NCBI GenBank assembly: GCA_025360715.1
Contig: JANYBS010000039.1
Span: forward strand, 1 to 33,901
Direction: 5' to 3'
DNA: 33,901 nt
Source: Candidatus Eiseniibacteriota bacterium
GTDB lineage: Bacteria > Eisenbacteria > RBG-16-71-46
The stretch's first letter is position 1; each line of letters opens with the position of its first letter. Positions 5,480 to 33,901 of this stretch are shown one piece after another. The position numbers and the translations under genes are program-made. The notes under the pieces were generated by a model. That model saw only the letters and a list, made by a program, of their open reading frames with translations. It made no database searches and had not been told where the DNA came from.

Positions 5480-5536
5480 AGGTCGCCGCACCGCATGCCG
5501 TCCGTCCAGTGCCACGTCTCTGGGAGACCCCGACTC

Positions 5537-12279: not shown

Positions 12280-12351
12280 CATGACAGGCCGGTGGCGCTT
12301 CGAGTCGTGCTGCCGCAACGAGGTGGTCCCGATGGCCAGAGGTGCGCACCG

Positions 12352-13245
12352 ATGACGTTGCCCCGTACGATCGCCGTCACCGGCGCGCTGGGCTTTGTCG
12401 CCTCGCACCTGCTGCCGCGCATCGAGGCGCTGGGCGCCACGCCCTTGCTGGTCGTGCGTCCCGGCCGTGAAGCCGACGCTGCGCGCGCGTATCCCGGGCG
12501 CGAGATCCGCACCGGCGGTCTCTCGCAGCCCACCACGCTCGCGCAGACCTTCGAGGGTGCGCATGCCATGGTCCATCTGGCCGGCATGTCGCTCGCGCCG
12601 GACTTCCTGCCCGCCGCGATCGCCGCCGGTGTGACCAGCGGCGTGTTCGTGAGCTCGGCCGGTGTGCACACCAAGCTCGTGAGCCCGGCCGCCGAGGCCA
12701 AGCGCAGTGGCGAACGCGCGGTCTGGGATTCGCCGATGACGGGAGTGGTGCTGCGACCGAGCATGATCTACGGCACGCCGCGCGACCGGAACCTGGTCCG
12801 GCTCCTGACGTGGATCGAACGCTGGCGCTTCGTGCCCGCGCCGCTGGGCGGCATCACGCTGCAGCAACCGGTGCACGTCGACGACCTCGTGCAGGCCATC
12901 CTCGCCAGCCTTGCGCGGATCGCCAACGGCGAACCGATCGAGCGAGAGTACGACGTCGGCGGCCCCGAGGCGATCTCGCTTGCCGAGATGGTCCGCCAGT
13001 GCGGGGCCGCGCTCGGCGTGAGCGCCGGCATCCTGCCGCTTCCGCTGGCGCCGGCGCATGGTGCCGCCATGCTGGCGCGGCGGCTGAAGCTGCCGTTCCC
13101 GGTGCGACCGGAGCAGGTCCTGCGGCTGACGGAGTCCAAGGCGGTGGACATCGGCCCCGCGCGCCGCGACCTGGGCTTCGCGCCACGGCCCTTCGCCGAG
13201 GGGATCGCCGCCGAGGTGCAGGCGATGCGGCACGAGAGCCGTTAG
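12352..13245 (+). CDS. NAD(P)-dependent epimerase/atypical SDR family protein (NDUFA9-like)
   Basis: A Rossmann-fold protein of the extended/atypical short-chain dehydrogenase group, 297 residues. The ATG at 12352 has AGAGGTG upstream; an in-frame GTG at 12292 overlaps the tRNA region and is less likely. Seen: nucleotide-binding VTGALGFVASHL (G11-x-x-G14-F15), then MVHLAGM, a VSSAG strand, LRPSMIYG, and a C-terminal substrate domain. The Tyr of the catalytic YxxxK is missing: the aligned stretch reads AAEAK, keeping only Lys. Such loss is seen in atypical SDRs of the NDUFA9/YbjT kind, which may bind NAD(P) without classical catalysis. It sits between the tRNA pair and the exopolysaccharide operon and is probably a separate unit. 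Substrate unknown; a sugar-nucleotide role is not supported by motifs. Confidence 0.85.
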   Translation: MTLPRTIAVTGALGFVASHLLPRIEALGATPLLVVRPGREADAARAYPGREIRTGGLSQPTTLAQTFEGAHAMVHLAGMSLAPDFLPAAIAAGVTSGVFVSSAGVHTKLVSPAAEAKRSGERAVWDSPMTGVVLRPSMIYGTPRDRNLVRLLTWIERWRFVPAPLGGITLQQPVHVDDLVQAILASLARIANGEPIEREYDVGGPEAISLAEMVRQCGAALGVSAGILPLPLAPAHGAAMLARRLKLPFPVRPEQVLRLTESKAVDIGPARRDLGFAPRPFAEGIAAEVQAMRHESR

Positions 13246-13601: not shown

Positions 13602-16223
13602 TTGAGAACCGGAGACGATCTGTCCGCTCAGCCTGAGATCCGCTTCCGTAAAGCACCTCGCTTCCTGGTGCTGACGGTCTGCTATGCGTCGATCGTGAAC
13701 CTGGCGTTCCTTGCCGCGCTGCAACTGCGCTTCGAGGGCCAGGTCCCGTCGCGTTTCTGGATCGGCTACCTCGATATCGCGCCCGCTTTCACGCTCTTCT
13801 CGCTGCTCGCCTACTTCGTCGCCGGCCTCTACCACGGGCTCTGGCGCTATGCGAGCACAGTCACGCTCTTCCAGATCTTCAAGGGCGTCACGCTGTCGGC
13901 TGCCACGCTCGTCGTGCTGCTGCTGCTGCTCCCGGACCGGCTGTTCCCGACCAGCGTCATCGCCATCCTGTGGCTGATCGAACTGGTGCTCGTTGGCGGC
14001 GTGCGCTTCGCCTGGCGTCTCATGCGCGAGCGCGTACTCGGCCCGCATACCGGACACTCGGTGCCTGCGCTCGTGATCGGCGCGGACCAGAGCGGCGTGA
14101 ACCTCGTCCAAGAGATGCGCCGCCGCATGAACAACGAGGAAGCGCTCATGCCGGTGGGCTTCCTTGATGACGACGAACGCATGACGGGCCACCTGATCGA
14201 AGGGCTCAAGGTGCTCGGCACGGTGGCGGACCTGCCAACGGTGCTGCGTGAGAAGCACATCGAGATGGTCATCGTCTCGGACCCCGACATCCCCGGCCGA
14301 GTGCTGCGTGACGTCGCGCGCGTCTGCACCGAGGCGTCGGTGCGCGTCAAGACGCTGCCCGGGCTCTCGGACCTGCATCACGGCGCACGCCCCACGCTCG
14401 CGCAGATGCGCGACATCCGCATCGAGGACCTGCTCGGCCGCGAGCCGGTGCAACTCGACCTCGAGGAGGTCGGCGAGTTCTTGCGCGGCCAGCGAGTACT
14501 CGTGACGGGTGCTGGCGGCTCGATCGGGTCAGAACTCGCGCGGCAGGTTAGCAGTTTCGGACCCACCGAACTCGTGCTGCTCGACCACGCCGAGAACGGC
14601 CTCTACTTCATCCACCACGAACTGGTGGCGAAGCAACTGGGCTTCCCGATCCATGCCATGGTCTGCGACATCCGCGACTCGTCCGGCGTCGAGCGCACGT
14701 TCCAGCGCTTCCAGCCCGCGGTCGTCTTCCACGCTGCTGCGCACAAACATGTCCCGCTGCTGGAATCCAGCCCGCGCGAGGCGGTGCTCAACAACATCGT
14801 CGGCACGCGCAACCTGGTGGACTCGGCGGACCGGCATGCGGTGCGCAAGTTCGTGCTCATCTCCACCGACAAGGCCGTGAATCCCACGAGCGTCATGGGC
14901 GCGTCCAAACGCGTGTGCGAGATGCTGCTGCAGAGCGCCTCGCAGCGCAGCCAGACCAAGTTCTGCGCCGTACGCTTCGGCAACGTGCTCGGCAGCGACG
15001 GCTCCGTGATCCCGCTCTTCCAGCGCCAATTACAGCGCGGCGGCCCGATCACGGTCACGCACCCGGAAGCGCGCCGCTACTTCATGACCATCCCCGAGGC
15101 CGTGCGTCTGGTGCTGCAGGCGGGCGCCATGGGCCGCGGCGGCGAGGTCTTCCTCCTCGACATGGGAGAGCAGGTGCGCATCCTGGACCTGGCGCGCCAG
15201 CTCGTGCGCCTGGCCGGCCTGCGCGAGGGCGAGGACATCGAGATCGTCTTCACCGGCCTGCGCCCCGGCGAAAAGCTCTACGAGGAACTGCACTCGCACG
15301 ACGAGAAGACGCGCATCACGCGGCACGAACGCATCCTCAACTGGGACCTTTCGGCGCGCGATGAGACGGGCCTGCGCACCGATGTCGCGTATCTCGAGGC
15401 GATCGCCGAGGAAGGCGATCCCCAGGCGGTCAAGGACAAGCTGCACGACATCGTTCCGGAGTACCGCGAGCCGCGTCCCGAAGAGCTGTTGCTCTCGCAC
15501 ACGCCGGCGATCGAGCAGAGCGACGTGCGCCTGCCTGCGGCAACGGCGATCGAGCCGGCGGCGCCTGCCGACTGGGCCGACGTGCTGCGGCAGACGTTCG
15601 ACGTGGGGCTGGCAGGCGCGCTGCTCGTGCTGGGTTCGCCGCTCTGGGCAGCGGTCGCGCTCGAGGCGCGCTTGCGCGGTGAGCGCGAGATCCTCCAACG
15701 CGAGGTACGCATCGGCCGCACGCGGCGCTACGCGGTACGGCGCGGCGCTGCGCAATCGGTGGCGATCGATCGCCGCAGCATCGAGCGCCGCACACAGGAC
15801 CTGCTCGGCGCGCCCATCACCTGTGCACGGTTCCGCGCGGACCTGGGGCCCGTCAGTCGATTGATCGCGCGTCACCGGCTCGACAAGCTGCCGTGGTTGC
15901 TCAACGTGATCCGCGGCGACATGGCGCTCGTGGGCCCCAAGCCCGAGAAGGAGGAGCTCGTGCTGCGCTGGCAGCACCTGGTGCCCGACTACTCGCGCCG
16001 GTTCGCCGTGCGTCCGGGACTGACCGGTCTCGCGCAGGTCTCGGGCATCTCGGATTGCGACGCCGACGGGGTCGTGCGGCGCGTCCACTATGACCTGTTC
16101 TACGTCGAACATCGCTCGCTGCTGCTGGATCTGCGGACCCTGGCGCGCACGCTCGCCGTGGTCATCCGCCGGCCCCGCACGGGCGAGCCGGGGGTCGCGG
16201 GCGAAGTACGGCCCGCTGCCTGA
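13602..16223 (+). CDS. fusion: membrane sugar-nucleotide 4,6-dehydratase (WbpM/CapD type) + divergent phosphoglycosyl transferase domain
   Basis: An inner-membrane protein of 873 residues. No ATG is near the N-terminus. TTG at 13602 has AAGG 9 nt upstream; CTG at 13620 with GGAG close by is an alternative. Seen: four hydrophobic helices (about 20-140), a CoA-binding-like Rossmann domain (about 150-270), then a Polysacc_synt_2 dehydratase with TGAGGSIG (302-309), HAAAHKHVPLLE and STDKAVNPTSVMGASK; M432 replaces Tyr of YxxxK with K436, as in WbpM-type UDP-GlcNAc 4,6-dehydratases. From about 660, a Bac_transf-like domain is fused. It keeps GDMALVGPKP and RPGLTGLAQVSG, but the catalytic DE of DELPQ reads D761-K762 (LDKLPW), and the KFRSM and GP-x-FFRQ signatures are lost. 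The first part probably makes a keto-deoxy sugar nucleotide. The second may be inactive, regulatory or altered in chemistry. It is the first gene of the operon. Confidence 0.9.
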   Translation: MRTGDDLSAQPEIRFRKAPRFLVLTVCYASIVNLAFLAALQLRFEGQVPSRFWIGYLDIAPAFTLFSLLAYFVAGLYHGLWRYASTVTLFQIFKGVTLSAATLVVLLLLLPDRLFPTSVIAILWLIELVLVGGVRFAWRLMRERVLGPHTGHSVPALVIGADQSGVNLVQEMRRRMNNEEALMPVGFLDDDERMTGHLIEGLKVLGTVADLPTVLREKHIEMVIVSDPDIPGRVLRDVARVCTEASVRVKTLPGLSDLHHGARPTLAQMRDIRIEDLLGREPVQLDLEEVGEFLRGQRVLVTGAGGSIGSELARQVSSFGPTELVLLDHAENGLYFIHHELVAKQLGFPIHAMVCDIRDSSGVERTFQRFQPAVVFHAAAHKHVPLLESSPREAVLNNIVGTRNLVDSADRHAVRKFVLISTDKAVNPTSVMGASKRVCEMLLQSASQRSQTKFCAVRFGNVLGSDGSVIPLFQRQLQRGGPITVTHPEARRYFMTIPEAVRLVLQAGAMGRGGEVFLLDMGEQVRILDLARQLVRLAGLREGEDIEIVFTGLRPGEKLYEELHSHDEKTRITRHERILNWDLSARDETGLRTDVAYLEAIAEEGDPQAVKDKLHDIVPEYREPRPEELLLSHTPAIEQSDVRLPAATAIEPAAPADWADVLRQTFDVGLAGALLVLGSPLWAAVALEARLRGEREILQREVRIGRTRRYAVRRGAAQSVAIDRRSIERRTQDLLGAPITCARFRADLGPVSRLIARHRLDKLPWLLNVIRGDMALVGPKPEKEELVLRWQHLVPDYSRRFAVRPGLTGLAQVSGISDCDADGVVRRVHYDLFYVEHRSLLLDLRTLARTLAVVIRRPRTGEPGVAGEVRPAA

Positions 16224-16259: not shown

Positions 16260-16291
16260 GGGGCTTGTCCGGCCCCACGGTGAAGTAAGAT
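16260..16291 (+). promoter_or_regulatory. possible internal promoter/hairpin before the export protein gene
   Basis: The 141-bp gap has TTGTCC (16265-16270) and TAAGAT (16286-16291), 15 nt apart, shorter than ideal. The -35 region overlaps a small hairpin GGGGC (16260-16264)/GCCCC (16272-16276). It is the only sizeable gap in the operon. Confidence 0.25.
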
Positions 16292-16364
16292 GCCGGCGAC
16301 CAGCCGGGATGGTGCCTGCAGGGTGCCAGCCGGAACGGGAAAGCCGCGCGTCCAGGAGGGACAC

Positions 16365-17339
16365 ATGATCGAGGTTCTGCTGAGTCACGCCCGGCGCCCG
16401 GCGCTGTGGGCGGCAGTGTTGCTGGGCTTGATGCTCTCGGGCGTCGCCGGCTCGGCCCACGCTGAAGACTACGTACTCGGATCCGAGGATGTGATCTCGG
16501 TCTCCGTGTGGCTGCACCCGGAGCTCGAACGCTCGGTGGCGATCAACGCCGACGGCAACATCACGCTGCCGCCCGTAGGCGATATCAAGGCCGCCGGCCT
16601 CACGTCGAAGCAGCTCTCCGACAAGATCGCCGACCGCCTTTCATCGTACCTGCGCCAGACGACCACAGTCACGGTGAGCGTTGCGCAGTACCTCTCGCGC
16701 AGCGTCTTCATCTCGGGCGCGGTCGCCAAGCCCGGCCGTTTCGGCTTCGAGCGCATCCCGACGATCGTCGACGTGCTCGGCCAGGCGGGTGGCGCGCTGA
16801 CTGGCGCCGACCTCTCGAACGTGCAGATCATCCGCAAGGACGGTGCTCAGCGCCGCACGCTGAGCGCTGATCTCTCGGCGAGCCTGCGCACCGGCGACAC
16901 GAGCGGCCTGCCGGCGTTGCAGCCCGGAGATGCCATCGTGATCTCCAGCAACGCGAATGGCGCCGGCGCGAGCGCGGGTGAAGGCGTGGCCGTGCTGGGC
17001 GAGGTGAGCAAGCCGGGCCTGTACGCGGTCGCGACGAATCAGGACATCTGGGCCGTGCTGGCCTCCGCGGGCGGCCTGACCGCGCGCGGCCGTCTGGACG
17101 ACGTGCGGTTGCTCACGCGTTCCGAAGGCGGCCAGACCGTGACGACGCTGGATCTGAAGGGCGTGCTCACCAAGGGCAGCCGTTCACCGATCGTGGTCAA
17201 GCCCGGCGATGTGGTCGTGGTCATGCCGCAGGGCGCGAACGTGTGGACTGGGCTCGTGAGCTTGATGTCGCTGTCGCGTGACGCCCTGAACGTGGTGGTG
17301 CTGCTGGACTACTTCAACAACCGATCGACGACGAAGTGA
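16365..17339 (+). CDS. polysaccharide export protein (OPX/Wza family, SLBB domains)
   Basis: A periplasmic or outer-membrane channel component for exopolysaccharide, 324 residues. The ATG at 16365 follows a strong AGGAGGG (16354-16360); the frame is open to an ATG at 16290 without such a site. Seen: a Sec signal peptide of 33 residues (cut AHA before Glu34) with no lipobox; Poly_export domain (about 35-115, starting DYVLGSEDVISVSVW); SLBB 1 (about 118-200, VFISGAVAKPGRF) and SLBB 2 (about 205-290, VAVLGEVSKPGLY). The C-terminal helix is short and Wza-like barrel-forming features are not obvious. This size class may need a partner outer-membrane protein. It stands directly before the co-polymerase/kinase gene, as in Wzx/Wzy loci. 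Confidence 0.93.
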   Translation: MIEVLLSHARRPALWAAVLLGLMLSGVAGSAHAEDYVLGSEDVISVSVWLHPELERSVAINADGNITLPPVGDIKAAGLTSKQLSDKIADRLSSYLRQTTTVTVSVAQYLSRSVFISGAVAKPGRFGFERIPTIVDVLGQAGGALTGADLSNVQIIRKDGAQRRTLSADLSASLRTGDTSGLPALQPGDAIVISSNANGAGASAGEGVAVLGEVSKPGLYAVATNQDIWAVLASAGGLTARGRLDDVRLLTRSEGGQTVTTLDLKGVLTKGSRSPIVVKPGDVVVVMPQGANVWTGLVSLMSLSRDALNVVVLLDYFNNRSTTK

Positions 17340-17353
17340 CCCTCCGAGGCCCG

Positions 17354-19600
17354 ATGAGCGAGATCCCAGCAGGCGTGACAGCGCCGGTGGACCCGGCCGA
17401 GATGCTCCGCACGGTATGGCGGCGCAAGTGGCTGCTGTTCATCCCGTGGCTCGTCGCCATCGCCATCGGCGTGGCTGCCGCATTCCTGCTCAAGCCGATC
17501 TACATGAGCTCCACGCTCATGCTGCTCGACCGTGGCCAGAGCATGCAGGGGCCGCTCGGCAACCTGGCGAGCGTCGATGTCGACCAGCAGGCCGACATCA
17601 TGCGCGAACAGGTGCAGAGCACGCTCTTCCTCAAGAGCGTGATCGCCGCCACCGGCGTCAAGCAGGACGCCGCGACCCGCGCCTGGGCGCTCAAGGGTGC
17701 CAAGCGCTATCCCGGCATGCAGCCCGACGAACAGGTCGAAGCGTTCCTGGTCGACGAGCTGCGTGACGCGATCAGCATCAAGCGCAGCAAGGGCAAGTTG
17801 TTCCAGGTCACGGTCGAGGACTATGACCCCGATCGCGCGCGCAAGTTCTGCGACGCGGTCGCGAACCAGTTCGTGGCCTCCTCGCGTGCCCGGCAGATGG
17901 AAGCCGTCGAGGCGCAGCAGGAGTTCAGCGTCCAGCAGCTGCAGGTCTACCAGCGCGAGCTGCAAGTGGCCGAAGGCAAGCTCGAGGCGGCGCGCCGTTC
18001 GGCGATCTCCTCGACGATCACCGGCAGCACCGTGAACGACAAGAACATCACGTTCGCTTCCACCTTGCTCGAGCAGGCCGGAACCGACCTTGAAGAGCAG
18101 CGCCAGCGTGTCTCGGACCTGCGCGCGTCATTCGCGGGCAGGCTGCGCGAGAACGATCCCGGCGCGATCTCGGGCCCCGAGGTCAATGCGCTCATCGGCC
18201 AGCTGGGCTCGCTGCAGAACCAGCTTGGCCGCGCGCAGCTCTCCGAGGGCACGGTCGGCGGTGGCGCCGGCATCCGGCTGTCGATGGCCCGCAAAACCGC
18301 CGACCTCGAGGCGGCGCTTGCCGCGAACGCCGCGCGCTCCCTGCCGGCGCTCTCGCAGGACGCGCGCGACCTGGCGATCCGCTACCGCGTGGCGCAGGCC
18401 GACCTGCAGGCGCGCGAGTCGTGGCACAGCTGGCTGTCTTCGCAGGTGAACAGCTTCCAGCGCACGATGGTCCTCGCGCCGGACCGCGAACTCGACATCG
18501 CCCATCTGCAGGCCGAGGTCGACCAGAAGCGCAGTCTGTATAACGCCTTCCAGCAGCAGTCGGCCGCCGCGCAGATCGCCGAAGCGTTCCAGAACGCCAA
18601 GGTGAGCGGTCGCTTCATCATCATGGAGCAGGCCAACCGGCCGCTGTCACCCAGCAAGCCCAATCGCGTGCTGCTCGTGCTGCTGTCGGTGATCGTCGGC
18701 GGCATGATCGGCGTGGGTACGCTGCTGGTGGTGGAACAGCAGGACCAGTCCATGCGCAGTGCCGACGAGGTCGAACGCCTGCTCGACCTGCCGGTGCTAG
18801 GCGCCATCCCGCGCGTCGAGGACCTCGAGCGCATCCGCCGCCGGCCGCGCCCGCAGCAGGGCGCTGGCGCGACCACGCCCGGTGCGCTGCCCGCGCCGCG
18901 CGACCAGGGCCTCATCCAGCGGCTCAAGCTCGAGAGCCCGCTCGGCCTGGAGTTCAAGCGCATCTACCTGAACCTTGCGCGCACGACGGGGCGTAGCCTG
19001 CCCGAGACGCTCATGATCACCAGCTCCACTCGCGCCGAGGGCAAGACGACCACAGCCGCCTGCTTGGGGATCACGCTCGCGCGCGAACACAAGCAGCGCA
19101 CGCTGCTGGTCGACTTCGACCTGCGCAGCCCCGCCCTGCACCGCGCGCTGGGCCTGCCGGGCAGCAGTTGGGGGCTCTCGCAGATGCTCCAGCAACGCAA
19201 CTTCGATGAGCGCTTCGTGCGCCAGACCGCGCTGCCGGACCTGGACTTCCTGCCAGCCGGCCGCAGCGAACGTCCGGCGGCGGAACTCATCGACCAGGAT
19301 TCCGTCGCGTGGTTCCTGCGCGAGGCGCGCGCGCGCTATGCGCTGATCGTGATTGATGCCGCGCCGAACCTGGCCGTACCCGACCCGCTCATCCTGGGCC
19401 GCGCGATCGAAGGGGTGCTCTACGTGATCAAGGCCGGCTCCACGGTGCGCAAGGCCGCTGAGCACGGCGTGCGCATCCAGCGTGAAGCCCGCGACAACGT
19501 GATCGGTGTGCTCATGAACGACGTGGGCGAGTTCCTGCCGCAGTACTACGGCTACAAAGCCAACTACTACGGCTACAAGTCCGAGGCGGCCGAGGGCTGA
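17354..19600 (+). CDS. polysaccharide co-polymerase fused to BY-type tyrosine kinase (Wzc family)
   Basis: An inner-membrane protein of 748 residues that controls chain length and export of polysaccharide. The ATG at 17354 has GAGG upstream; a GTG at 17336 overlaps the preceding stop and is less likely. Seen: Wzz domain with TM1 (about 26-46), a long coiled-coil periplasmic part (about 190-410), and a Pro-rich TM2 (about 435-460, after PSKPNR). Then the cytoplasmic kinase: Walker A SSTRAEGKTTT (K564; Arg-Ala where Pro-Gly is usual), Walker A' LLVDFDLR (D587, D589), and Walker B-like YALIVIDAAP. The tail QYYGYKANYYGYK (730-742) holds six tyrosines, the expected autophosphorylation cluster. The gene follows the OPX gene by 14 nt, so the export pair is coupled. 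Confidence 0.94.
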   Translation: MSEIPAGVTAPVDPAEMLRTVWRRKWLLFIPWLVAIAIGVAAAFLLKPIYMSSTLMLLDRGQSMQGPLGNLASVDVDQQADIMREQVQSTLFLKSVIAATGVKQDAATRAWALKGAKRYPGMQPDEQVEAFLVDELRDAISIKRSKGKLFQVTVEDYDPDRARKFCDAVANQFVASSRARQMEAVEAQQEFSVQQLQVYQRELQVAEGKLEAARRSAISSTITGSTVNDKNITFASTLLEQAGTDLEEQRQRVSDLRASFAGRLRENDPGAISGPEVNALIGQLGSLQNQLGRAQLSEGTVGGGAGIRLSMARKTADLEAALAANAARSLPALSQDARDLAIRYRVAQADLQARESWHSWLSSQVNSFQRTMVLAPDRELDIAHLQAEVDQKRSLYNAFQQQSAAAQIAEAFQNAKVSGRFIIMEQANRPLSPSKPNRVLLVLLSVIVGGMIGVGTLLVVEQQDQSMRSADEVERLLDLPVLGAIPRVEDLERIRRRPRPQQGAGATTPGALPAPRDQGLIQRLKLESPLGLEFKRIYLNLARTTGRSLPETLMITSSTRAEGKTTTAACLGITLAREHKQRTLLVDFDLRSPALHRALGLPGSSWGLSQMLQQRNFDERFVRQTALPDLDFLPAGRSERPAAELIDQDSVAWFLREARARYALIVIDAAPNLAVPDPLILGRAIEGVLYVIKAGSTVRKAAEHGVRIQREARDNVIGVLMNDVGEFLPQYYGYKANYYGYKSEAAEG

Positions 19601-19638: not shown

Positions 19639-21222
19639 TTGCGCAGCCTCCGTGTCCTTCGCAACGTCATCACGAACTACCTGCGCTTCTTCTTGGCGGG
19701 GGCGATCGCATTCGTGCTGACGCCGTTCATGGTCCGCCACCTCGGCGACCGTGACTATGGCCTCTGGGTGACCTTGTTCTCGCTGACCGGCTACTTCGGT
19801 CTGTTCGATCAGGGCATCCGGCCCTCGCTCGTGCGCTACGTGTCTCGCGACCACGCCGCCGGCGACCGCGACGGCCTCTCGCGCACGATCAGCAGCGCCT
19901 TCGCGCTCTACAGTGTCGTCGCGATCATCGCCCTGGCCGTGGCCGTGGTCGTCGCGCTGCAAGCGCCCGCGTGGATCCGTGTGGACGCCGACCTGCTCAA
20001 GGTCGCGCCGGCGCTCATCATGGTCGTGGGGCTCTCGATCGCGCTGGGCTTCCCGCTGGGCGTCTTCGGCGCCGTGTTATCGGGCCTGCAGCGCTACGAC
20101 ATCGCCAACGCGCTCGGCATGATCGTGGGCGTGCTGCGCGCGATCCTGTTCGTGGTCGTCCTGCGCTTGGGTGGCGGCCTGCTCGACCTGGCGTGGGCCT
20201 CGCTCGTGATGAACGTGCTGGGTCACGCGGCCTCGTGGATCTACGCGCAGCGCCTGCTGCCGGGTGTGAGCTACGGCCCGCAGTGGGTCACGCGCGAGCA
20301 CCTGCGGCGTATCGCCAGCTATGGCGGATACGCGTTCATCGGCGCACTCGCCACCAACATCGCGTTCCAGACCGACGCGCTTGTGATCACGCCTATCCTG
20401 GGCGCCGCGCTCGTCACGCCGTTCGCGCTGGCGTCGGGTCTGGTCGACAACGCGCGCACGCTCGTGCATTCGGCGGCGTACGTGCTCTCGCCCACGGCGA
20501 GCGAGATGGACACGCTGGGAGAGGGCGACAAGCTGCGCATGATGCTCGTCGCGGGCTCGCGCTACTCGGTGTTGGTCAGCTGGCCGGTCCTCGCCGGGCT
20601 CATCATCTTCGGCTCGAACCTGCTCACCACGTGGGTGGGGCCCAAGTATGCTTCCGCGGGCCTGTTGCTCGCGGTCCTCGCGGTGCCCACCATGGTCGCT
20701 CTGCCGCAGGCCACCGCGTCGTCGCTGCTCTTTGGCGTGAGCCGTCACAAGGGCGTCGTGCTCCTGTCGATCCTTGCGGCGTTCATCAACCTGGGCCTGT
20801 CGCTCTGGTGGGCTCGCTGGCCGGCGCCGATGGCGTGGCTTTTCGGCGTGGCCCTCAGCCCGGGGCTGGTGGGTGTGGCCATGGGCACCGCCGTGCCGTT
20901 GTTCTTCGTGAGCGGCATCGCGACGATGGTGTTCGCATGCCGGGCGCTCTCGCAGCCGTTCGCGCACTATCTGTGGGAGGGCATGGTGAACCCTGGCTTG
21001 TTCACGCTCGCGTTCGCGCTGCCGGCCATGCTCGTGCAGCGTCTCTGGCACCCTTTAGGTTGGCTTCCGATCCTGGGTTCCTGCGCGGCGTGCTGGCTGG
21101 TATTTGCGGCCGTGGTCCTGCGTTTCGGCATCCGCGAGCCGGATCGTGCGCGTTGGGGCCGAATGATGCCGGGTCTCTTCGGTCGCAAGCGTGCGGCCGC
21201 TGGCGAAGGAGGTGTCTCATGA
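19639..21222 (+). CDS. Wzx-type polysaccharide flippase (MOP superfamily)
   Basis: An integral membrane protein of 527 residues with many hydrophobic helices, expected to flip the undecaprenyl-linked repeat unit across the inner membrane. Seen: the start is TTG at 19639 with AGGAG 9 nt upstream and no nearby ATG. The N-terminus (NVITNYLRFFLAG...FMVRHLGDRDYGLWVTLFSLTGYFGLFD) has the polysaccharide biosynthesis protein signature of Wzx/RfbX. The gene begins 38 nt after the kinase stop, and its TGA overlaps the next ATG as ATGA. No soluble domain is present. The sugar unit it moves cannot be read from sequence. Confidence 0.92.
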   Translation: MRSLRVLRNVITNYLRFFLAGAIAFVLTPFMVRHLGDRDYGLWVTLFSLTGYFGLFDQGIRPSLVRYVSRDHAAGDRDGLSRTISSAFALYSVVAIIALAVAVVVALQAPAWIRVDADLLKVAPALIMVVGLSIALGFPLGVFGAVLSGLQRYDIANALGMIVGVLRAILFVVVLRLGGGLLDLAWASLVMNVLGHAASWIYAQRLLPGVSYGPQWVTREHLRRIASYGGYAFIGALATNIAFQTDALVITPILGAALVTPFALASGLVDNARTLVHSAAYVLSPTASEMDTLGEGDKLRMMLVAGSRYSVLVSWPVLAGLIIFGSNLLTTWVGPKYASAGLLLAVLAVPTMVALPQATASSLLFGVSRHKGVVLLSILAAFINLGLSLWWARWPAPMAWLFGVALSPGLVGVAMGTAVPLFFVSGIATMVFACRALSQPFAHYLWEGMVNPGLFTLAFALPAMLVQRLWHPLGWLPILGSCAACWLVFAAVVLRFGIREPDRARWGRMMPGLFGRKRAAAGEGGVS

Positions 21223-22247: not shown

Positions 22248-23287
22248 GTGGCGCGCTACGCATCTCGGTCGTGATCCCCTGCCACGACGGCCTGCCCGAC
22301 GTGCTCGAGGCTGTTGCCTCGGTGCTGGCACAGACCGCGCCGGCGCACGAGATCGTGATCGTCGATGACGCTTCGAGCGACGGCTCTGCGAGAGCGCTCG
22401 AGCAGCGATTCGGCGAGCGCGTGAAGTTCGTGCGCGGGCATTTCGGCAGCGCCTCGGCCGCCCGCAATGCCGGCTGGCGTGCGGCCGCCGGTGAGTGGGT
22501 CGCGTTCCTCGATGCGGACGACTTGTGGTTCCCCGATAAGCTCGCGGTGGCCGCCGAACGTCTCGCCGCCGCACCCAAGGCCGATTGGTTCTTCAGTGAT
22601 GGCGCCTTCCGTACGCTCGACGGCCAGTGGCACGCGTCGTGGTTCGGGCTCTATGCGGATCTGGTGGAGCCCTATGTGGGCTCGCCGGTGGCACAGCTTT
22701 TCGAAGTGAACTTCGTGCTCACGTCTTCCACGATCGTGCGCCGTTCGGCGCTCGAGGCCGTCGGGGGCTTCGATGAGGCGCTCACGCACGCCGAGGATCT
22801 GGATCTGTGGATCCGTCTCTCTCGCGCCGGGCTCGCGACGGGCTCGCGCCGCGCGCTCGTGCGCTATCAGCATCGCGAAGGCGGCCTCACGCAGCAGACC
22901 GTGAAGCGGCTCGAGGGCGGTTGGATGTTGTTCTCGCGGCTCGCGGCCGACCCGGCCCTCGCGCCCGGCCTGCGCCGGCGCGCGCGGCGCCGCGCGTCGC
23001 TCTATGCCTACAAGCTGGCTCTGCATGCTCTGCGCGGCGGCCATGGCGGCGCGGCGCGCGAGCACTTCTCGCGGGCATGGCTGGTCCCCGAGCGCGTGGT
23101 GCCGGTGTTGCTGGGCTTCGTGGCGACGCTGCTGCCTGCGGCCCTCTTCCAGCGGCTGCGCGGACGCAGCAGCGCCGTCGCCCTGGCCACGCCCATGGTC
23201 GCGGTGCGGCGCGTCGCGCTGCGGGGCGAGGATGATCCCGGAGCCGGCGATGCAGGTGCGAACGGCCGCGCTGGGGAGCGATCGTGA
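22244..23287 (+). CDS. glycosyltransferase family 2 (second of a tandem pair)
   Basis: A GT-A-fold enzyme of 347 residues. It shares a 4-bp ATGA overlap with the preceding GT2. Seen: ISVVIPCHDGLPDVLEAV, VDDASSDGSA, the DxD-type motif DADD (90-93, FLDADDLW), and an acceptor-site motif GGFDEALTHAEDLDLWIRL, where ED is the likely catalytic base region. The C-terminus has an amphipathic or hydrophobic patch (VVPVLLGFVATLLPAALF) that may bind the membrane. Similarity in motif order and length to the upstream gene suggests an old tandem duplication followed by divergence. The sugar donor is unknown. Confidence 0.92.
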   Translation: MSGALRISVVIPCHDGLPDVLEAVASVLAQTAPAHEIVIVDDASSDGSARALEQRFGERVKFVRGHFGSASAARNAGWRAAAGEWVAFLDADDLWFPDKLAVAAERLAAAPKADWFFSDGAFRTLDGQWHASWFGLYADLVEPYVGSPVAQLFEVNFVLTSSTIVRRSALEAVGGFDEALTHAEDLDLWIRLSRAGLATGSRRALVRYQHREGGLTQQTVKRLEGGWMLFSRLAADPALAPGLRRRARRRASLYAYKLALHALRGGHGGAAREHFSRAWLVPERVVPVLLGFVATLLPAALFQRLRGRSSAVALATPMVAVRRVALRGEDDPGAGDAGANGRAGERS

Positions 23288-24780
23288 ACCGGGAGCCTGA
23301 AGGCGTCCGGCGCGTGGATCCTGCAGGCGAGGTGCGCGTCGCCGCGCACCGCCAGGCCGAAGCGATCTCCCGGCACATGGTGACTTACGCGGCGATCGCC
23401 GTCGTGATCATCATCATGTGCGCTCTCATCGCGCTCGACTACCTTTTCGTTCAGGAGACGCACCGCGTCATCAAAGTACTCATCGGCGTGACCGCGCTCG
23501 GCGCGATCCTTGCCATGCCGCGTCTGGGACTGCTGCTCCTGCCGGTCGTGACGCCGTTCCTGCCGTGGGTGCCGCCGACGCCGATACCCGGGCTCAATCC
23601 GCTGAACGTCCTCTTGTTCTCGATCTTCGGGACCTTCGCCCTGGGCCGCATCCTTGCGCGCCAGGACGTTTTTCGTCCGACGCGGCTCGGACGGATCCTG
23701 GGATTTCTGCTGCTTCTGTGCCTGGTGTCCATCTTCCGCGGCGCCGCCGTGCCCACGGGCTATATCTATGACGCCCGCGCGACCAGTCTGCAGTTCTTCC
23801 GCGCAGCGACCACCTTTGCACCGTACTTCATCTATCTCTCCATGCTGCGCGACCGCACGGAGCGCCGGCGCGTCGCGTGGGCACTGCTCATCGGCCTGCT
23901 GCTCGAGGGCCTCGTCACGATGAAGCTCGGCCGCAACGGCTCGGGCAGCCGGGCGATCGGCACGATCGGCCAGTCGAACGAACTGGGTGCGTACCTCGCG
24001 ATCTTCAGCGTGATGGGCGCGGCGATGATGGCGGGTACACGCAACTGGTTCGCCAAGCTCTCGATCGCCGCGATCGCGGGGATCGGCGTGCTCGGCGTCA
24101 TGTTGTCGGTCTCACGGGGCAGTCTGCTCGCGCTCGTCGCCGGCCTGGTGGTGGTCGCGTGGCGCAGTTCCAAGTGGGTCGTGGGGTTGCTGGTGCTGGC
24201 GCTTGCCCTAGGCCCGATCTGGCTGCCGGACTACGTCATGGACCGCATCAAGAGTTCGTCGGTGCAGGTCGAGGGCAGCGACGAGGCCACGGTCGACATG
24301 GCGGCCGAAGCTCGCCTCGAGACGTGGCGCACGATCCTCACGGTCGTGCAGGATCACCCGCTCGACGGCGTGGGTTTCGCCGGACTGGCTTATGTACTTC
24401 CCGATGTGGGCTCCGAACTGGGCTTGGAGGAGGTCAAGGATTCCGCCCACAACACCTTCCTGCGCATGCTCAGTGAGATGGGCGCGGTCGGACTGGCGCT
24501 GTTCGTCTGGCTGCTCTGGAAGGCCTGGGTGCTGGGCGACCAGGGCGTGCGCCGTGCGCGCGATGCGTTCGACCGCTCGCTCGCGGTGGGCCTGTGCGGC
24601 GCGGTCGTGACCATGGTGGTCTCGTGCGCGTTCGGGGACCGTTTCTTCAGCGTGATCATCTCGAGCGGATTCTGGATCCTTTGCGCGCTTGTCGACCATC
24701 AAGTGCAGAACGAGCCGGCCGCCGAGCCGGCGCTTGCGGTGGTTCCGCGCGCGCGCCGCTTCGGAAGGGCGCGCGCATGA
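23284..24780 (+). CDS. O-antigen ligase/Wzy-type polymerase family membrane protein
   Basis: A polytopic inner-membrane protein of 498 residues, expected to polymerise flipped repeat units in the periplasm. The GTG at 23284 overlaps the previous stop as GTGA and has GGGGAG 5 nt upstream. Seen: about ten or more hydrophobic helices from residue 35 on, and the Wzy_C (PF04932) signature in the last third: HPLDGVGFAGLAY, a large periplasmic segment, then SAHNTFLRMLSEMGAVGLALF (in the HN-x-FL and EMG positions; H389). It sits in a locus with flippase and co-polymerase, so polymerase is more likely than ligase. The family cannot be split by sequence alone. Confidence 0.88.
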   Translation: MNREPEGVRRVDPAGEVRVAAHRQAEAISRHMVTYAAIAVVIIIMCALIALDYLFVQETHRVIKVLIGVTALGAILAMPRLGLLLLPVVTPFLPWVPPTPIPGLNPLNVLLFSIFGTFALGRILARQDVFRPTRLGRILGFLLLLCLVSIFRGAAVPTGYIYDARATSLQFFRAATTFAPYFIYLSMLRDRTERRRVAWALLIGLLLEGLVTMKLGRNGSGSRAIGTIGQSNELGAYLAIFSVMGAAMMAGTRNWFAKLSIAAIAGIGVLGVMLSVSRGSLLALVAGLVVVAWRSSKWVVGLLVLALALGPIWLPDYVMDRIKSSSVQVEGSDEATVDMAAEARLETWRTILTVVQDHPLDGVGFAGLAYVLPDVGSELGLEEVKDSAHNTFLRMLSEMGAVGLALFVWLLWKAWVLGDQGVRRARDAFDRSLAVGLCGAVVTMVVSCAFGDRFFSVIISSGFWILCALVDHQVQNEPAAEPALAVVPRARRFGRARA

Positions 24781-25796
24781 GTGGCCGTGCCCTGCGCTGG
24801 CTGCTGAGCCTTGGCGTGCGCGCGCCGCGCGCACATGCGGGTGCGCCGCGCCTGACGATCATCCGTCAGCACCGGATCTATCGCGCCGAGGAACGTCCGC
24901 TCTACCGCCTGGGCGTGAGCGAGGCGATCTTCGAGGCACAGGTCGCATCGTGCGTCGCGGCCGGGCTCACGCCCATGACGGTGGCTGATGGCCTCGCGTG
25001 GCTGGCCCGCGGCGAGCGCGGCCACCGCGTGGCCTTCACGTTCGACGACGGCTATGCGGATAACGCCACGCACGCGGTGCCGATCCTGGCGCGATACGGC
25101 GCCAAGGGCACGTTCTACCTGGCCGCCGGCCTGATGCAGGAGCAGCGCGCGCCATGGTGGGACGAACTCGCATGGTGCCTCACCGAAGCCACGCGCAAGC
25201 GCGCGAGCATCGACTTCGGCGCGCAGCCGGTGGCGCTGGAGCTGGGAACATGGGCGGGGCAGAGGGTTGCGCTCGGCGCGCTGCTGCCGCTGCTGCGCGT
25301 GCCGCCGGACGAACAACGCGCGCGCTTCGATGCGCTGAGAGGCGCGACCGGCGTGAGTTCGCCCGCGCCCTGCGAGCTGGCTGGCTGGCCTCTTGCGGCG
25401 CGGTTCGCCGAGGCTGCCATGGAGGTCGGGGCGCACACCCTGTCGCATCCGTTCCTCACACTGGTACCGCCGGCGTCGCAGGCCAGCGAGATCGCGGACT
25501 CCGCGGCGCTCATCCGTGAACGGCTGGGCGCCCCGGTGACCGGGCTCGCGTACCCGAATGGCGACCACGACGAAAGTGTCGTGCGCGCCGCGCAGGCCAG
25601 CGGGCTCACGTACGCGGTCACCACGAATGCGGGTGACTGCCGCGACGTGCGCGCGCCATTCCGCCTTCCGCGCCGCGCGCTCACCGAGGGCGCCTGCATG
25701 GGCCCTGGGGCGCGCTTCTCGGCGCACATGCTGCGCGCGGAGCTGACCGGCGCGTTCGATCCCTTGCGTCGCGGGCGCGTCGAGGCGGGCACATGA
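24777..25796 (+). CDS. polysaccharide deacetylase (NodB-homology domain)
   Basis: A metal-dependent carbohydrate esterase (CE4-like) of 339 residues that would remove N- or O-acetyl groups from the polysaccharide or its precursor. The ATG at 24777 overlaps the polymerase stop as ATGA. Seen: an N-terminal region RIYRAEERPLYRLGVSEAIF typical of this subfamily, then NodB motif 1 TFDDGY (D90, D91), motif 2 HTLSHP (H220, H224) and motif 3 LAYPNGDHDE (258 on). Asp and both metal-binding His are present, so activity is plausible. The stretch between motifs 1 and 2 has a roughly 100-residue insert (WWDELAWCLTEATRK...), common in exopolysaccharide/XrtA-linked members. No clear signal peptide is seen, so the location is uncertain. 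Confidence 0.9.
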   Translation: MSGRALRWLLSLGVRAPRAHAGAPRLTIIRQHRIYRAEERPLYRLGVSEAIFEAQVASCVAAGLTPMTVADGLAWLARGERGHRVAFTFDDGYADNATHAVPILARYGAKGTFYLAAGLMQEQRAPWWDELAWCLTEATRKRASIDFGAQPVALELGTWAGQRVALGALLPLLRVPPDEQRARFDALRGATGVSSPAPCELAGWPLAARFAEAAMEVGAHTLSHPFLTLVPPASQASEIADSAALIRERLGAPVTGLAYPNGDHDESVVRAAQASGLTYAVTTNAGDCRDVRAPFRLPRRALTEGACMGPGARFSAHMLRAELTGAFDPLRRGRVEAGT

Positions 25797-30456: not shown

Positions 30457-31331
30457 GCAACGCCGCGGATAACGCACGTGAGCGCTTCGAGCGCTTCGTG
30501 CGCTGGACCATCCAGAAGGAGTACGGCCCCATCCAGGCGCGGCTGCCAGAAGGCGAGCGTGCGGCTTTCGCGGACTACTACAAGAACCTGCCCAAGCCCG
30601 GCGATGAGGCCGCGATCGCGCGCTACCTGCGCGGCTTCTGGCGTAGCGAGGCCGGCTGGACGGCGCGCTGGATCGGCGAGCGCGCCAAGGCGATCGGCGC
30701 GCGTCCACGCGTGATGGACGCCGGCTCGGGCTTCGGCACGTACGCGATGCTCTACGCGTCGGCGGGCGCCGATGTCGTGGGCGCCGATCTGCGCCCGGAC
30801 CGCTTGGCGGCGGCGCAGACTCGCCTCGAGTTCCACCGCGAGTCCACCGGCGAGACGTTGCCCGTGCGCTATGACCGAGCCGACCTCACCAAGGAGTGGG
30901 ACGGCGACTACGACCTGGTGTGGGTCTACAACGCGCTGTCGCACATCGATCCGGTCGAAGGCTTCCTGGAACAGGTGCGCAAGCACCTGAAGCCCGGCGG
31001 TGTGCTGGTGATCGGCGACATCAACGGCGCGCACCCCAAGCACCACAAGCGCCTGCAAGAGATCCGCGGCGACGATGTGCACCCCGGCTACACGGCGCCC
31101 GACGGCCAGCACTACACTTATGCCATGGAACGCGAATTCCCGCCGGGGGAGATCCGCCAGATCTTCGAGGCGAATGGCCTGCGCATGGTCCATCACGAGC
31201 TCTTCTGGGGCGGTCTCGGCATGTTGCCCGAGCCGGTCTACCAGCTGGCCATGCGGCCAGTGCAGAGTATGTGGTGGTTCGGACACCAAGTGGCGCTGCG
31301 GCAGCTGGTCGTGGCCACGCCCGCTCGCTGA
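30453..31331 (+). CDS. class I SAM-dependent methyltransferase
   Basis: A Rossmann-fold methyltransferase of 292 residues, likely to methylate a sugar of the polysaccharide or another operon product. ATGA overlap with the CapA-like gene, with AAGGAGA 7 nt upstream of the ATG. Seen: an N-terminal cap (1-85), motif I VMDAGSGFGTYA (87-98), the acidic end of strand 2 (VVGADLRPDRL), DYDLVWVYNALSHIDPVEGF as motif post-I/II, and the LKPGGVLVIGD strand (motif III). The C-terminal third (REFPPGEIRQIFEANGLRM) is of the UbiE/Methyltransf_11 kind. The substrate cannot be inferred; its place in the operon points to the exopolysaccharide. Confidence 0.92.
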   Translation: MSNAADNARERFERFVRWTIQKEYGPIQARLPEGERAAFADYYKNLPKPGDEAAIARYLRGFWRSEAGWTARWIGERAKAIGARPRVMDAGSGFGTYAMLYASAGADVVGADLRPDRLAAAQTRLEFHRESTGETLPVRYDRADLTKEWDGDYDLVWVYNALSHIDPVEGFLEQVRKHLKPGGVLVIGDINGAHPKHHKRLQEIRGDDVHPGYTAPDGQHYTYAMEREFPPGEIRQIFEANGLRMVHHELFWGGLGMLPEPVYQLAMRPVQSMWWFGHQVALRQLVVATPAR

Positions 31332-31354: not shown

Positions 31355-33199
31355 ATGCGCGTGCTCTTCGTGACCCAGTACTTCCCGCCCGAGACCGGCG
31401 CCGCGCCTGCGCGCGCCCGGCATCTTGTGCGCGCGCTCGTGCGCGCCGGGCATGAGGTGCGCGTGGTCACGGGGCTGCCGAGCCATCCGGCCGGCGTGAT
31501 CCCGCCGCAGTGGCGCGATAAAGCAGGCACGCGCGAGACATTCGAAGGCGCTGCGCTGGAACGCGTGTGGCTGTACGCGACGCCGAACAAGACCGCGCTG
31601 CGGCGGCTCTGGAACCACCTGAGCTTCGCGCTCTCGGGGCTGCCGGTGCTGCTGTCGGGGCCGGCGCCCGACGTGGTGATCGCGACGACGCCGCCGCTCT
31701 TCCACGGGCTCTCGGCCATGATCGCTGCGCGGCTGCGCGGGGCGGTATTCGTGAACGACTGCCGCGACGACTGGCCGCATGCCGCGATCGCACTGGGCGA
31801 GATGCGGCCCGGTCTGGTGGCGAACGTCCTCGACGGTATCGCGCGCGCGTTCCAGTCGCGTGCGGCGCGCATCCTGGTCGTGACCCCGGGCATGCAGAGC
31901 CAGCTGGCTTCGCGCGGTTTCGAGGCGCGCAGGCTGGTGTTCCTTCCCAATGGTGCGGACACCGAGCTGTTCCGGCCGCGCAGTGGCGCGGGTCTTCCAC
32001 AAGCGAGCGCGGCCGGAGGCCGCGCACCGGCTGAACCGTCGTCGCCCTTCACAGTCCTCTATGCCGGCACGCACGGCCTGGTGCACGGCATGGAAGCCAT
32101 CATGGATGCGGCCGTGCTGCTGCGCGAGGAAGGCGTGCGTTTCCGCTTCGTGGGCGACGGTGTGGCCAAGGCGGCGCTGCAGCAGCGCGCGCAAGCCGAA
32201 AGCCTGACGAACTGCGTCTTCGAGCCCAGCGTCGCGCCGGAGCACCTCGTGGCGCTGCTGCACGAGGCCGATGCGTGCATCGCCACCACGCGCGGCAGCA
32301 GCTTCGCGGGCGAGACGATCCCCGTGAAGATCTTCGACTATCTCGCGGCCGGCTGTCCGGTCGTGGCCGCGGTGTGCGGCGATGCCGCCAGTGTGGTGGA
32401 GCGTTCGGGCGGCGGCCTTGTGGTGCAACCCGAGAGCGGCTCCGCGATCGCCGAAGGCGTGCGGCGGCTCCAGTCCGACTCGGCGTTGCGCGCCCGACTG
32501 GCCGAGTCCGGCCCGCGCTTCGTGGAGCGCGAGCATTCGCGCCGCGCGATCGGCGAGAAGCTCGTCACCACGATCGCGGAAGCGCATACCGAGGCGAAGG
32601 GGCGGGGGATCGCGCCGCGGCCCGCCGGTGTGCATGGTGCGCTCAAGCGCCTGATCGACATCGTGCTGTCGGCCGTGGGCCTGATCGTCGCGTGGCCGGT
32701 GATGCTGCTGCTCGCGACCGTGATCCGGCTCGATTCGAACGGCCCGGCGCTCTTCCGTCAGAGCCGCATCGGCCAGGGCTCGCGGTGGTTCACGCTGCTC
32801 AAGTTCCGCAGCATGGCGGCCGGCACACCCGACCTGGCCACGCACCTGGTGCAGCCCGGCGTCGTACGCGTCACCCGCATCGGCGCGTTCATCCGCCGCA
32901 CGAGCCTGGACGAGCTGCCGCAGCTCTGGAACATCCTGTGCGGCGACATGACGCTCGTGGGCCCGCGCCCCGCGCTCCACAATCAGTACGATCTCATCGC
33001 GCTGCGCCAGCAGGCGGGAGTCGATGCCCTGCTGCCGGGCCTCACGGGCTGGGCGCAGATCAACGGCCGCGACGAGATCCCCATGGCGCAGAAGGTGGCC
33101 TACGACGCCGAGTACCTGGAGCGCCTCTCGCTGGGTTTCGATCTCGAGATCCTCGTGCGCACGGCGCTCACGCTCTTCACCATGCGAGGCGTGCGATGA
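31355..33199 (+). CDS. fusion: GT4 glycosyltransferase (WbuB-like) + intact monotopic phosphoglycosyl transferase
   Basis: A 614-residue two-domain enzyme. The ATG at 31355 has AAGGA 10 nt upstream. Seen: residues 1 to about 410 form a WbuB-like GT4 (FVTQYFPPETGAAPARARH, VNDCRDDWP, FLPNGADTELF, YAGTHGLVHGMEAI, E320-x7-D328 in GETIPVKIFDYLAAG). Residues about 428-614 form a Bac_transf domain with all hallmarks: KRLIDIVLSAVGL plus the re-entrant helix, GPALFRQSRIGQG, KFRSM, the catalytic pair D519-E520 (TSLDELPQL), VGPRP and PGLTGWAQINGR. The second half can transfer phospho-sugar to undecaprenyl phosphate and start the unit; the first would add the second sugar. Fusions of this kind are known among monotopic phosphoglycosyl transferases. 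The operon therefore has its own intact initiator even if the domain at 15580-16200 is dead. The gene overlaps the exosortase start by 4 bp. Confidence 0.93.
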   Translation: MRVLFVTQYFPPETGAAPARARHLVRALVRAGHEVRVVTGLPSHPAGVIPPQWRDKAGTRETFEGAALERVWLYATPNKTALRRLWNHLSFALSGLPVLLSGPAPDVVIATTPPLFHGLSAMIAARLRGAVFVNDCRDDWPHAAIALGEMRPGLVANVLDGIARAFQSRAARILVVTPGMQSQLASRGFEARRLVFLPNGADTELFRPRSGAGLPQASAAGGRAPAEPSSPFTVLYAGTHGLVHGMEAIMDAAVLLREEGVRFRFVGDGVAKAALQQRAQAESLTNCVFEPSVAPEHLVALLHEADACIATTRGSSFAGETIPVKIFDYLAAGCPVVAAVCGDAASVVERSGGGLVVQPESGSAIAEGVRRLQSDSALRARLAESGPRFVEREHSRRAIGEKLVTTIAEAHTEAKGRGIAPRPAGVHGALKRLIDIVLSAVGLIVAWPVMLLLATVIRLDSNGPALFRQSRIGQGSRWFTLLKFRSMAAGTPDLATHLVQPGVVRVTRIGAFIRRTSLDELPQLWNILCGDMTLVGPRPALHNQYDLIALRQQAGVDALLPGLTGWAQINGRDEIPMAQKVAYDAEYLERLSLGFDLEILVRTALTLFTMRGVR

Positions 33200-33901
33200 G
33201 CACGTCGCTCACGAACGTGACGCCGCGCCGCAGCGCGCTGCCGGGCTGGGCACAGCTGCTGCTGCTGATGGTGCCCATCGCGGTGGCCTATCACAACGCG
33301 GCGTCGTCGTTGTGGTCCACGTGGATGACGAACGACAACTACTCGCATGGCCCGCTCGTGCCGCTCACGTCGCTGGCGCTGGTCTGGATACGCCGCGACG
33401 TCCTGCGCGAGCGTGCCGTGGCGCCCGACGCACGCGGGTTGGTCTTGGTGGCTCTCGCGTGCGCGATGCATGTCTTCGGCGTCCGCGCGGATCTCTTCGC
33501 GCTGCAGGGGTGGTCGTTCATCGTGCTGCTCTTCGGGTTGACTCTCGCGCTGCTGGGCATGCCGCTGCTGCGCGCCCTCGCCTTCCCGATCGGCTACCTG
33601 GGCTTCATGCTCACATTCCCGCCAGTCGTCATGAACACGGCGAGCTATGCGCTCAAGGGGATCGCGACCCTGGCGTCCACCGTGATCGCGAGGGCGTGCG
33701 GAGTGGAACTGCACCGCCAAGGCATGTCGATCTTCATCCATGGTGGCGAACTGCGTGTGGAGAACGCTTGCAGCGGCCTGCGCTCGCTGCTGGCACTGCT
33801 CGCGACCGGGACGCTCTTCGCGTACTTCCAGAAAGGCGGCCCGTTGCGCCGCGCCGCCGTACTCGTTGCCGCCCTGCCGATCGCGGTGCTGGGCAACGTG
33901 G
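33196..33901 (+). CDS. exosortase (EpsH/Xrt family), 3' end outside the window
   Basis: A polytopic membrane transpeptidase-like protein that processes and anchors proteins with PEP-CTERM-like tails, typical of Gram-negative bacteria making exopolysaccharide. The ATG at 33196 overlaps the previous stop as ATGA. Seen in the 235 visible codons: TM helices from residue about 18, the family signature NDNYSHGPLVPLTSLALVW, and the likely catalytic Cys192 in ENACSGLRSL. The conserved Arg expected after LGNV lies just beyond the window. The gene is in the operon but no PEP-CTERM substrate gene is visible. The subtype (Xrt letter) cannot be given without the rest. Confidence 0.93.
   Translation, partial: MSTSLTNVTPRRSALPGWAQLLLLMVPIAVAYHNAASSLWSTWMTNDNYSHGPLVPLTSLALVWIRRDVLRERAVAPDARGLVLVALACAMHVFGVRADLFALQGWSFIVLLFGLTLALLGMPLLRALAFPIGYLGFMLTFPPVVMNTASYALKGIATLASTVIARACGVELHRQGMSIFIHGGELRVENACSGLRSLLALLATGTLFAYFQKGGPLRRAAVLVAALPIAVLGNV

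Follow-up and report, generated by a model that had tools for sequence, protein, structure and literature searches.

Two phosphoglycosyl transferase fusions, one with a conserved and probably inactive transferase domain, in an exopolysaccharide-like operon of an Eiseniibacteriota bacterium

Phosphoglycosyl transferases (PGTs) are described in passages of PMC10942596 as gatekeepers at the point where undecaprenyl phosphate, which is scarce, becomes committed to a polymer, and fusions of monotopic PGTs with other enzymes of glycan pathways (Bi-PGTs) are presented there as an established class; neisserial PglB is an acetyltransferase/PGT (part of PMC11130364). The same passages call the N-terminal domains common to WbaP and PglF puzzling. 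For S. aureus capsule 5, excerpts of PMC6441080 describe a pathway in which CapD, CapN, CapM and CapL (a dehydratase, a reductase, a PGT and a GT-B enzyme, respectively) lead to the lipid-linked monosaccharide and disaccharide. The DE and PRP motifs of PGTs are described in part of PMC10653937, and the catalytic residues K59, R88, D93, E94 and R111 are named in part of PMC12802240.

We analysed a stretch of 33,901 nucleotides, here called the window, from a Candidatus Eiseniibacteriota bacterium (assembly GCA_025360715.1, contig JANYBS010000039.1, positions 1 to 33,901 of the forward strand). An earlier note on this DNA had reported two different PGT fusions in one operon, one altered and one intact, and this is borne out: the dehydratase-fused copy at 13602-16223 reads LDK and PKP, and the copy fused to a GT4 glycosyltransferase at 31355-33199, where the coordinates are as the note gave them, has intact LDE and GPRP motifs. 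The surprising member of the pair is the conserved, probably dead PGT.

The window operon

The genes form one co-directional run in which most neighbours share a 4-base overlap, and they follow one another from the dehydratase-PGT fusion to the exosortase in the order given below. Several of the assignments are matches below NCBIfam cut-offs.

12292..13245, + strand: NAD-dependent epimerase/reductase-like gene, a weak candidate for a 4-keto reductase (partial PF01370 match, 39.6 bits)
13602..16223, + strand: PglF-type dehydratase with an altered PGT, 873 aa, TTG start (domain matches, model)
15573..16169, + strand: probable pseudo-PGT domain of the dehydratase fusion (alignment)
16290..17339, + strand: Wza-like polysaccharide export protein (NCBIfam, synteny)
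17336..19600, + strand: Wzc-like chain-length determinant/tyrosine kinase (NCBIfam, synteny)
19639..21222, + strand: flippase-like (Wzx) protein (weak NCBIfam match, synteny)
21219-22247 and 22244-23287, + strand: two GT2-like glycosyltransferases (matches below model cut-offs)
23284..24780, + strand: Wzy_C (O-antigen ligase/polymerase) protein (domain match)
24777..25796, + strand: polysaccharide deacetylase (domain match)
25793-26953, 26950-28179 and 28176-29312, + strand: three GT4 glycosyltransferases (domain matches)
29299-30456, + strand: CapA-like PGA_cap protein (domain match)
30453-31331, + strand: methyltransferase (domain match)
31355..33199, + strand: GT4-PGT fusion, 614 aa, ATG start (WcaI-like GT4 at about 1-405, monotopic PGT at about 424-614)
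33196..33901, + strand: EpsH-family exosortase, incomplete at the window end (PF09721, 162 bits on the portion present)

By gene content the operon resembles exopolysaccharide systems of the Wzx/Wzy type, with an exosortase in addition. The GT4-PGT gene had been taken for the last of the operon, which it is not: its last 4 bases, stop codon included, are shared with the exosortase gene, which continues past the window end. The general exosortase model TIGR02602 scores above its cut-off on this partial gene (130 against 106), and none of the XrtA-system models (export, chain length, kinase, exosortase, glycosyltransferase) reaches its NCBIfam cut-off in the window, with pepcterm_export at 137 against 180 and the XrtA exosortase, on the gene cut by the window end, at 141 against 208.

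Autophosphorylated Wzc proteins end in a Tyr-rich tail, and such a tail (YYGYKANYYGYKS) forms the C-terminus of the Wzc-like protein (window 19530-19600). The window also encodes, at 5495-10258, a 1587-aa secreted-looking protein which, judged by eye, we take to have a C25-like peptidase part, FG-GAP-like repeats and a C-terminal sorting-like domain.

The dehydratase-fused PGT domain

The 873-residue protein starts with four long helices, taken as transmembrane (its membrane part was judged from the helices of the predicted model), followed by a CoA_binding_3 domain (residues 80-226), the dehydratase (about 293-620; Polysacc_synt_2 at 299-579, 386 bits) and the altered PGT (about 658-856; PF02397 at 664-855, 106 bits against a cut-off of 27). 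Its dehydratase part matches the C. jejuni PglF structure 5bju at 2.2e-90, and the SDR domain carries TGxGGxIG and an intact STDKAV motif, the sequence features of a PglF-like UDP-GlcNAc 4,6-dehydratase.

A profile of the dehydratase C-terminus (A1) detects the full-length fused domain in 18 of the 47 class genomes, including 13 of the 20 in the family, and a truncated form in G024. Two of these loci (G001, G017) are cut by contig ends and one (G010) has a frame break in the N-terminal part. Among the other family genomes, G016 lacks the central part of the domain, G008, G011 and G015 have contig ends or fragments at this locus, and G014 has a distant dehydratase only; G018 and G019 have the dehydratase without the fused domain. 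No such fusion was found among the matches in the 338 genomes, of 385 in all, that lie outside the class, with the best six candidates per genome scored: no A1 match there with an E-value of up to 1e-40 sits in a frame longer than 497 aa. A Wza-like gene follows the fusion in all 18 genomes with downstream sequence, the window and the truncated G024 included, and a Wzc-like gene comes next wherever the contig continues.

For the catalytic site we followed five alignment columns, those of PglC K59, R88, D93 and E94 and a further Arg taken as that of the PRP motif. In the window domain the dyad reads LDK (E to K), the Lys is replaced by Arg, the first Arg by Ala, and PRP has become PKP; the Asp is the one catalytic residue kept. 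The full set is present in none of 19 aligned dehydratase-fused domains, a set that includes the window and the truncated G024 and leaves out the partly deleted domain of G016: the Lys is kept in 0/19, R88 in 4/19, the Asp in 16/19, the Glu in 1/19 (G017) and the PRP Arg in 1/19 (G010). By contrast, all five residues are present in every one of 113 other PGT domains. These comprise 110 aligned domains (21 PGTs including the GT4-PGTs, nine standalone class PGTs and 80 survey sequences, the best 80 of 586, from named genomes), which had been cut out by intact-dyad patterns, and three standalone loci that alone failed those patterns and were read by eye; the PGT-like domains of the GT2 chains described below lie outside this set. 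A further PGT outside the alignment, L060 of G086, has intact dyad and PRP motifs. The fused domain thus scores as PF02397 but lacks the catalytic residues of an active monotopic PGT. Other features persist, including the helix-break Pro (17/19) and the C-terminal Asp (18/19), both present in the window domain, which also has an Arg-rich insert. Eight Arg of this insert and two Tyr are invariant in all 17 rows of the A1 alignment. The insert had been considered an invention of the dead domain, which was rejected, as live standalone PGTs of the class have an Arg-rich insert too.

Two sequence details stand apart. L016 (G017) has an intact DE dyad with most other catalytic residues lost, while G009 of the same genus has DK; the DE may perhaps be a reversion. 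The eight family dehydratase-pseudo-PGT proteins outside the window's genus (L010-L017) end in a KGVTR-like tail, which is absent in G000 (the window genome), G003 and G004 of that genus.

The AlphaFold2 model of the domain has pLDDT values of mostly 81-96 outside the insert and superimposes on PglC 8e37 with a TM-score of 0.81 over the target; it was built with an alignment containing PGT rows, so that the fold match is not independent of homology. The domain is predicted to keep the PGT fold with the re-entrant helix and its break Pro. The model of the whole protein (pTM 0.50) does not fix the arrangement of the domains.

Selection acts on the altered domain much as on the intact one. In NG86 comparisons of G000 with its four genus mates, the dead domain has a dN/dS of 0.26-0.33 and the live PGT one of 0.26-0.29, with the GT4 part at 0.25-0.31 and the dehydratase at 0.15-0.20. 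The 19 fused domains form a single clade in the PGT tree (support 1.0). Duplication of one PGT within the operon was rejected, the two PGT domains falling in separate clades. The dead domain sits on a long branch which FastTree places near a mainly survey (large-PGT) group (support 0.85), and the sequences scoring next best to profile A1 are standalone small PGTs of the class. The dehydratase tree, which is without G002, G004, G007, G018 and G019 and includes G010 with its frame break, serves as a rough guide.

From these observations the dehydratase-fused domain is probably a maintained pseudo-PGT that is no longer catalytic. We found no report of a conserved PGT pseudoenzyme in the open-access literature searched, and these fusions may have been described before. 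The earlier note had proposed a division of labour rather than simple redundancy. Redundancy is indeed unlikely, given an altered copy without the full catalytic set in 19/19 domains, but a division between two working PGTs fails because the dehydratase-fused copy is probably not a working PGT. It is conceivable that this copy still works with an altered active site, the Asp acting as nucleophile and Lys standing in for Glu, so that the operon has two initiators for different sugars. The retained Asp, the DE of G017, the purifying selection on the domain and the occurrence in the class of reverse-order PGT-PglF fusions with an intact dyad speak for such an enzyme. We regard it as very improbable, however, since the Lys of the KFR motif is lost in 19/19 domains and the PRP Arg and the Glu in 18/19 each, and the replacements of the Glu vary (K, R, T, S, G, A) with no single new residue.

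A second reading, that the dead PGT is no more than a remnant in decay or an additional, passive membrane anchor, draws on its partial deletion in G016, truncation in G024 and absence from G018 and G019. Against it stand the whole-domain fused profile matches in 18/47 class genomes, a dN/dS of about 0.3 like that of the live PGT and the eight invariant Arg of the insert, and the protein already has four long N-terminal helices. A passive remnant therefore agrees poorly with the selection data, and we consider it doubtful.

The dead PGT could also serve as a regulatory target rather than a dock, with the domain sensing UDP/UMP or undecaprenyl phosphate, or being bound by Wzc, and so throttling the dehydratase. 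The adjacency to Wza and Wzc, with Wzc encoded two genes downstream, is consistent with this, as are the two Tyr and the Arg array invariant in 17/17 rows; one may speculate that the Arg array is the partner of the Tyr-rich tail of Wzc. Precedents appear in parts of two papers, where tyrosine phosphorylation by CapAB activates S. aureus CapM (PMC6441080) and a bound response regulator activates a large PGT (PMC12802240). The Tyr and the Arg-rich insert also occur in live standalone PGTs of the class, however, so that their conservation is not specific, and we hold this regulatory role to be a lesser possibility. A dock beside the live PGT and the export complex and a regulatory target of Wzc or nucleotides both fit the data.

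The GT4-PGT fusion and its pairing with the dehydratase fusion

In the second fusion GT4 families match above their cut-offs between residues 18 and 387, and PF02397 matches at 431-608 with 192 bits (cut-off 27). The NCBIfam family PRK10307/WcaI covers about the first 400 residues with 179 bits, below its cut-off of 276. The PGT part has intact LDE and GPRP motifs with catalytic residues K483, R514, D519, E520 and R538, so that by PF02397 match and catalytic residues it belongs to the monotopic PGT superfamily, and its predicted fold matches PglC 8e37. The model of the whole chain (pTM 0.47, mean pLDDT 60 in the GT4 half) is too uncertain for the mutual orientation of the active sites.

An assembly error can be excluded as the origin of this chain, which occurs at full length in 11 of 118 genomes searched: nine of the 20 family genomes, the window included, and two outside the class, G115 and G081. 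Identity is 61-75% across the eight family relatives, 45% in G115 and 33-35% in G081. An alignment of the full-length chains shows a conserved P-K-FD region in the GT4 part, and K, R, D, E and R are invariant at the catalytic columns in 11/11. Since these residues are kept throughout, it is plausible from sequence that one chain performs the first two steps of assembly.

Fused and unfused PGTs of the family form one clade (support 0.97), nested with PGTs of other groups, and repeated loss of the GT4 part is therefore the simpler reading of these small trees. In G006, G009, G012 and G017 an unfused PGT with an intact dyad stands before the exosortase, beside the dehydratase-pseudo-PGT fusion; the gap between its match and that of the preceding gene is about 95-245 bases, and the GT4 part is therefore gone from that place. 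These four genomes also lend some weight to an alternative in which the two parts are a loose gene fusion lacking functional coupling and the GT4 works at a later step or at another position of the repeat unit, as they keep the PGT, which is thus independent of the GT4. Retention of the fusion at 61-75% identity in the eight family relatives and at 45% in G115 argues against it, as does the S. aureus GT-B enzyme, which according to part of PMC6441080 adds the second sugar directly after the PGT. A loose fusion thus appears rather unlikely. The GT4-PGT is a natural candidate for passing the lipid-linked first sugar directly to the second transferase.

A search of relatives for the paired fusions gave a mixed answer. 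Eight family genomes carry both, on one contig in five of them (G000, G003, G005, G010 and G013), and the distribution tracks lineages and synteny rather than being random. The pairing is common and not obligate, with G006, G007, G009, G012, G017, G115 and G081 as exceptions. G007 keeps the dehydratase-pseudo-PGT and has a methyltransferase followed by the exosortase with no PGT between them (two other PGTs lie elsewhere in its genome); the dead domain is therefore not dependent on that partner alone, which speaks against a dock that serves only this PGT and counts against the functional proposal below. No full-length GT4-PGT was seen in the six class genomes outside the family that have the dehydratase-pseudo-PGT (best ten candidates per genome scored), and G115 and G081 have the GT4-PGT with no match to the dehydratase-pseudo-PGT.

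Proposed function and comparison with known systems

We propose that this part of the operon serves as initiation module for an exopolysaccharide system that is Wzx/Wzy-like and linked to an exosortase. The dehydratase would convert UDP-GlcNAc into a UDP-4-keto-6-deoxy sugar, which the product of the upstream gene perhaps reduces. The PGT part of the GT4-PGT would then move the sugar-1-phosphate onto undecaprenyl phosphate, and its GT4 part would attach the second sugar to give a lipid-linked disaccharide. The pseudo-PGT may act as a docking or regulatory module at the membrane interface, holding the donor-making enzyme beside the live PGT and the Wza/Wzc export complex. The likeness to S. aureus CapD, CapN, CapM and CapL is the ground on which we assign both the first and the second transfer to the GT4-PGT chain; we infer a 6-deoxy-HexNAc as the probable first sugar. 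Domain make-up, loss of catalytic residues, selection and synteny are what can be seen directly, and the reactions, the sugar and the docking are our interpretation of them; on balance we lean towards the proposal as a whole.

Gene neighbourhoods bear on it in both directions. Four PGTs from outside the class fall in the PGT clade of the GT4-PGT, and two of them (G111, G098) have a PglF-like dehydratase and a PF01370 reductase no more than a few genes away; in G109 the dehydratase is about 9 kb away and in G115 it is on another contig, and this distance counts against the proposal. The dehydratase fusion is preceded by a PF01370-like gene in the window, in G001-G005 and G010, and at a contig edge in G008; no such gene was found in the upstream DNA examined from G006, G007, G012 and G013. 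That the reductase candidate is partial and missing upstream in four relatives is a further point against, together with the dehydratases of G018 and G019 that have no dead domain, the Asp (the proposed nucleophile) retained in 16/19 domains and the DE of G017.

The class holds other PGT fusions. In four open reading frames (one in G018, two in G011 and one in G023) an intact-dyad PGT lies N-terminal to a PglF-like dehydratase in one frame of 814-894 aa.

L222:4379-7060, - strand: reverse-order PGT-PglF fusion (sequence reading)
L223:309-2972, + strand: reverse-order PGT-PglF fusion (sequence reading)
L224:5043-7529, - strand: reverse-order PGT-PglF fusion (sequence reading)
L229:8600-11041, + strand: reverse-order PGT-PglF fusion (sequence reading)

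Other chains (L265, L266, L267, L268 and L274-L289) combine a GT2, a membrane part, a DUF and a PGT-like domain, the GT2 part being seen in the first four. PF02397 barely detects this domain (21-34 bits in the first four), and the D-E dyad is absent from all 19 readable open reading frames of the 20 taken out. Profile A6 was made from four of these proteins. Of the 27 class genomes outside the family, 25 have a match that begins at the first positions of the profile, and in some the match covers the membrane part only.

With the reverse-order fusions and the dyad-less GT2 chains in the same class, the dead domain is less of an oddity. We tentatively raise the idea, which we think may well be wrong, that dead PGT domains are a recurrent docking or regulatory module of surface-polysaccharide assembly in this class, with a PglF-fused family (19 genomes, one of them truncated) and a GT2-chain family. 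If so, such domains would bring donor synthesis together with initiation and elongation at a single site on the membrane, and this would also explain the N-terminal domains common to PglF and large PGTs. The pseudo-PGT in any case bears on that puzzle, which is stated in passages of PMC10942596 for PglF-like dehydratases and large PGTs, and a selected, apparently inactive PGT tied to a donor-making dehydratase is a natural system for testing how donor supply and initiation are coupled.

Among known systems, the GT4-PGT is closest to the Bi-PGTs (neisserial PglB, and PglB2, an ATP-grasp/PGT), in which a PGT domain is likewise joined to a glycan-pathway enzyme; here that enzyme is a glycosyltransferase instead of a sugar-nucleotide modifier, and the chain would count as a new member of that class or, at the most, as one of its variants. 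The dehydratase fusion, with its dead PGT, is not bifunctional in that sense. It shares with C. jejuni PglF (the protein it was aligned to) and S. aureus CapD an N-terminal membrane part, a CoA-binding-like domain and an SDR dehydratase, but has an extra C-terminal pseudo-PGT of about 200 aa. With the large PGTs WbaP and WcaJ it shares membrane helices, a PF13727 domain and a C-terminal PGT, but a dehydratase of about 330 residues stands between the PF13727 domain and the catalytically altered PGT, and it falls outside the large PGTs. The likeness to S. aureus capsule 5 is one of pathway roles: four separate enzymes act there, whereas here PGT and GT4 are fused and a dead PGT is attached to the dehydratase. 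Finally, XrtA/PEP-CTERM loci have, like the window, Wza, a Wzc-like chain-length protein/kinase, an exosortase and glycosyltransferase genes, but the window proteins score below the cut-offs of the XrtA-system models.
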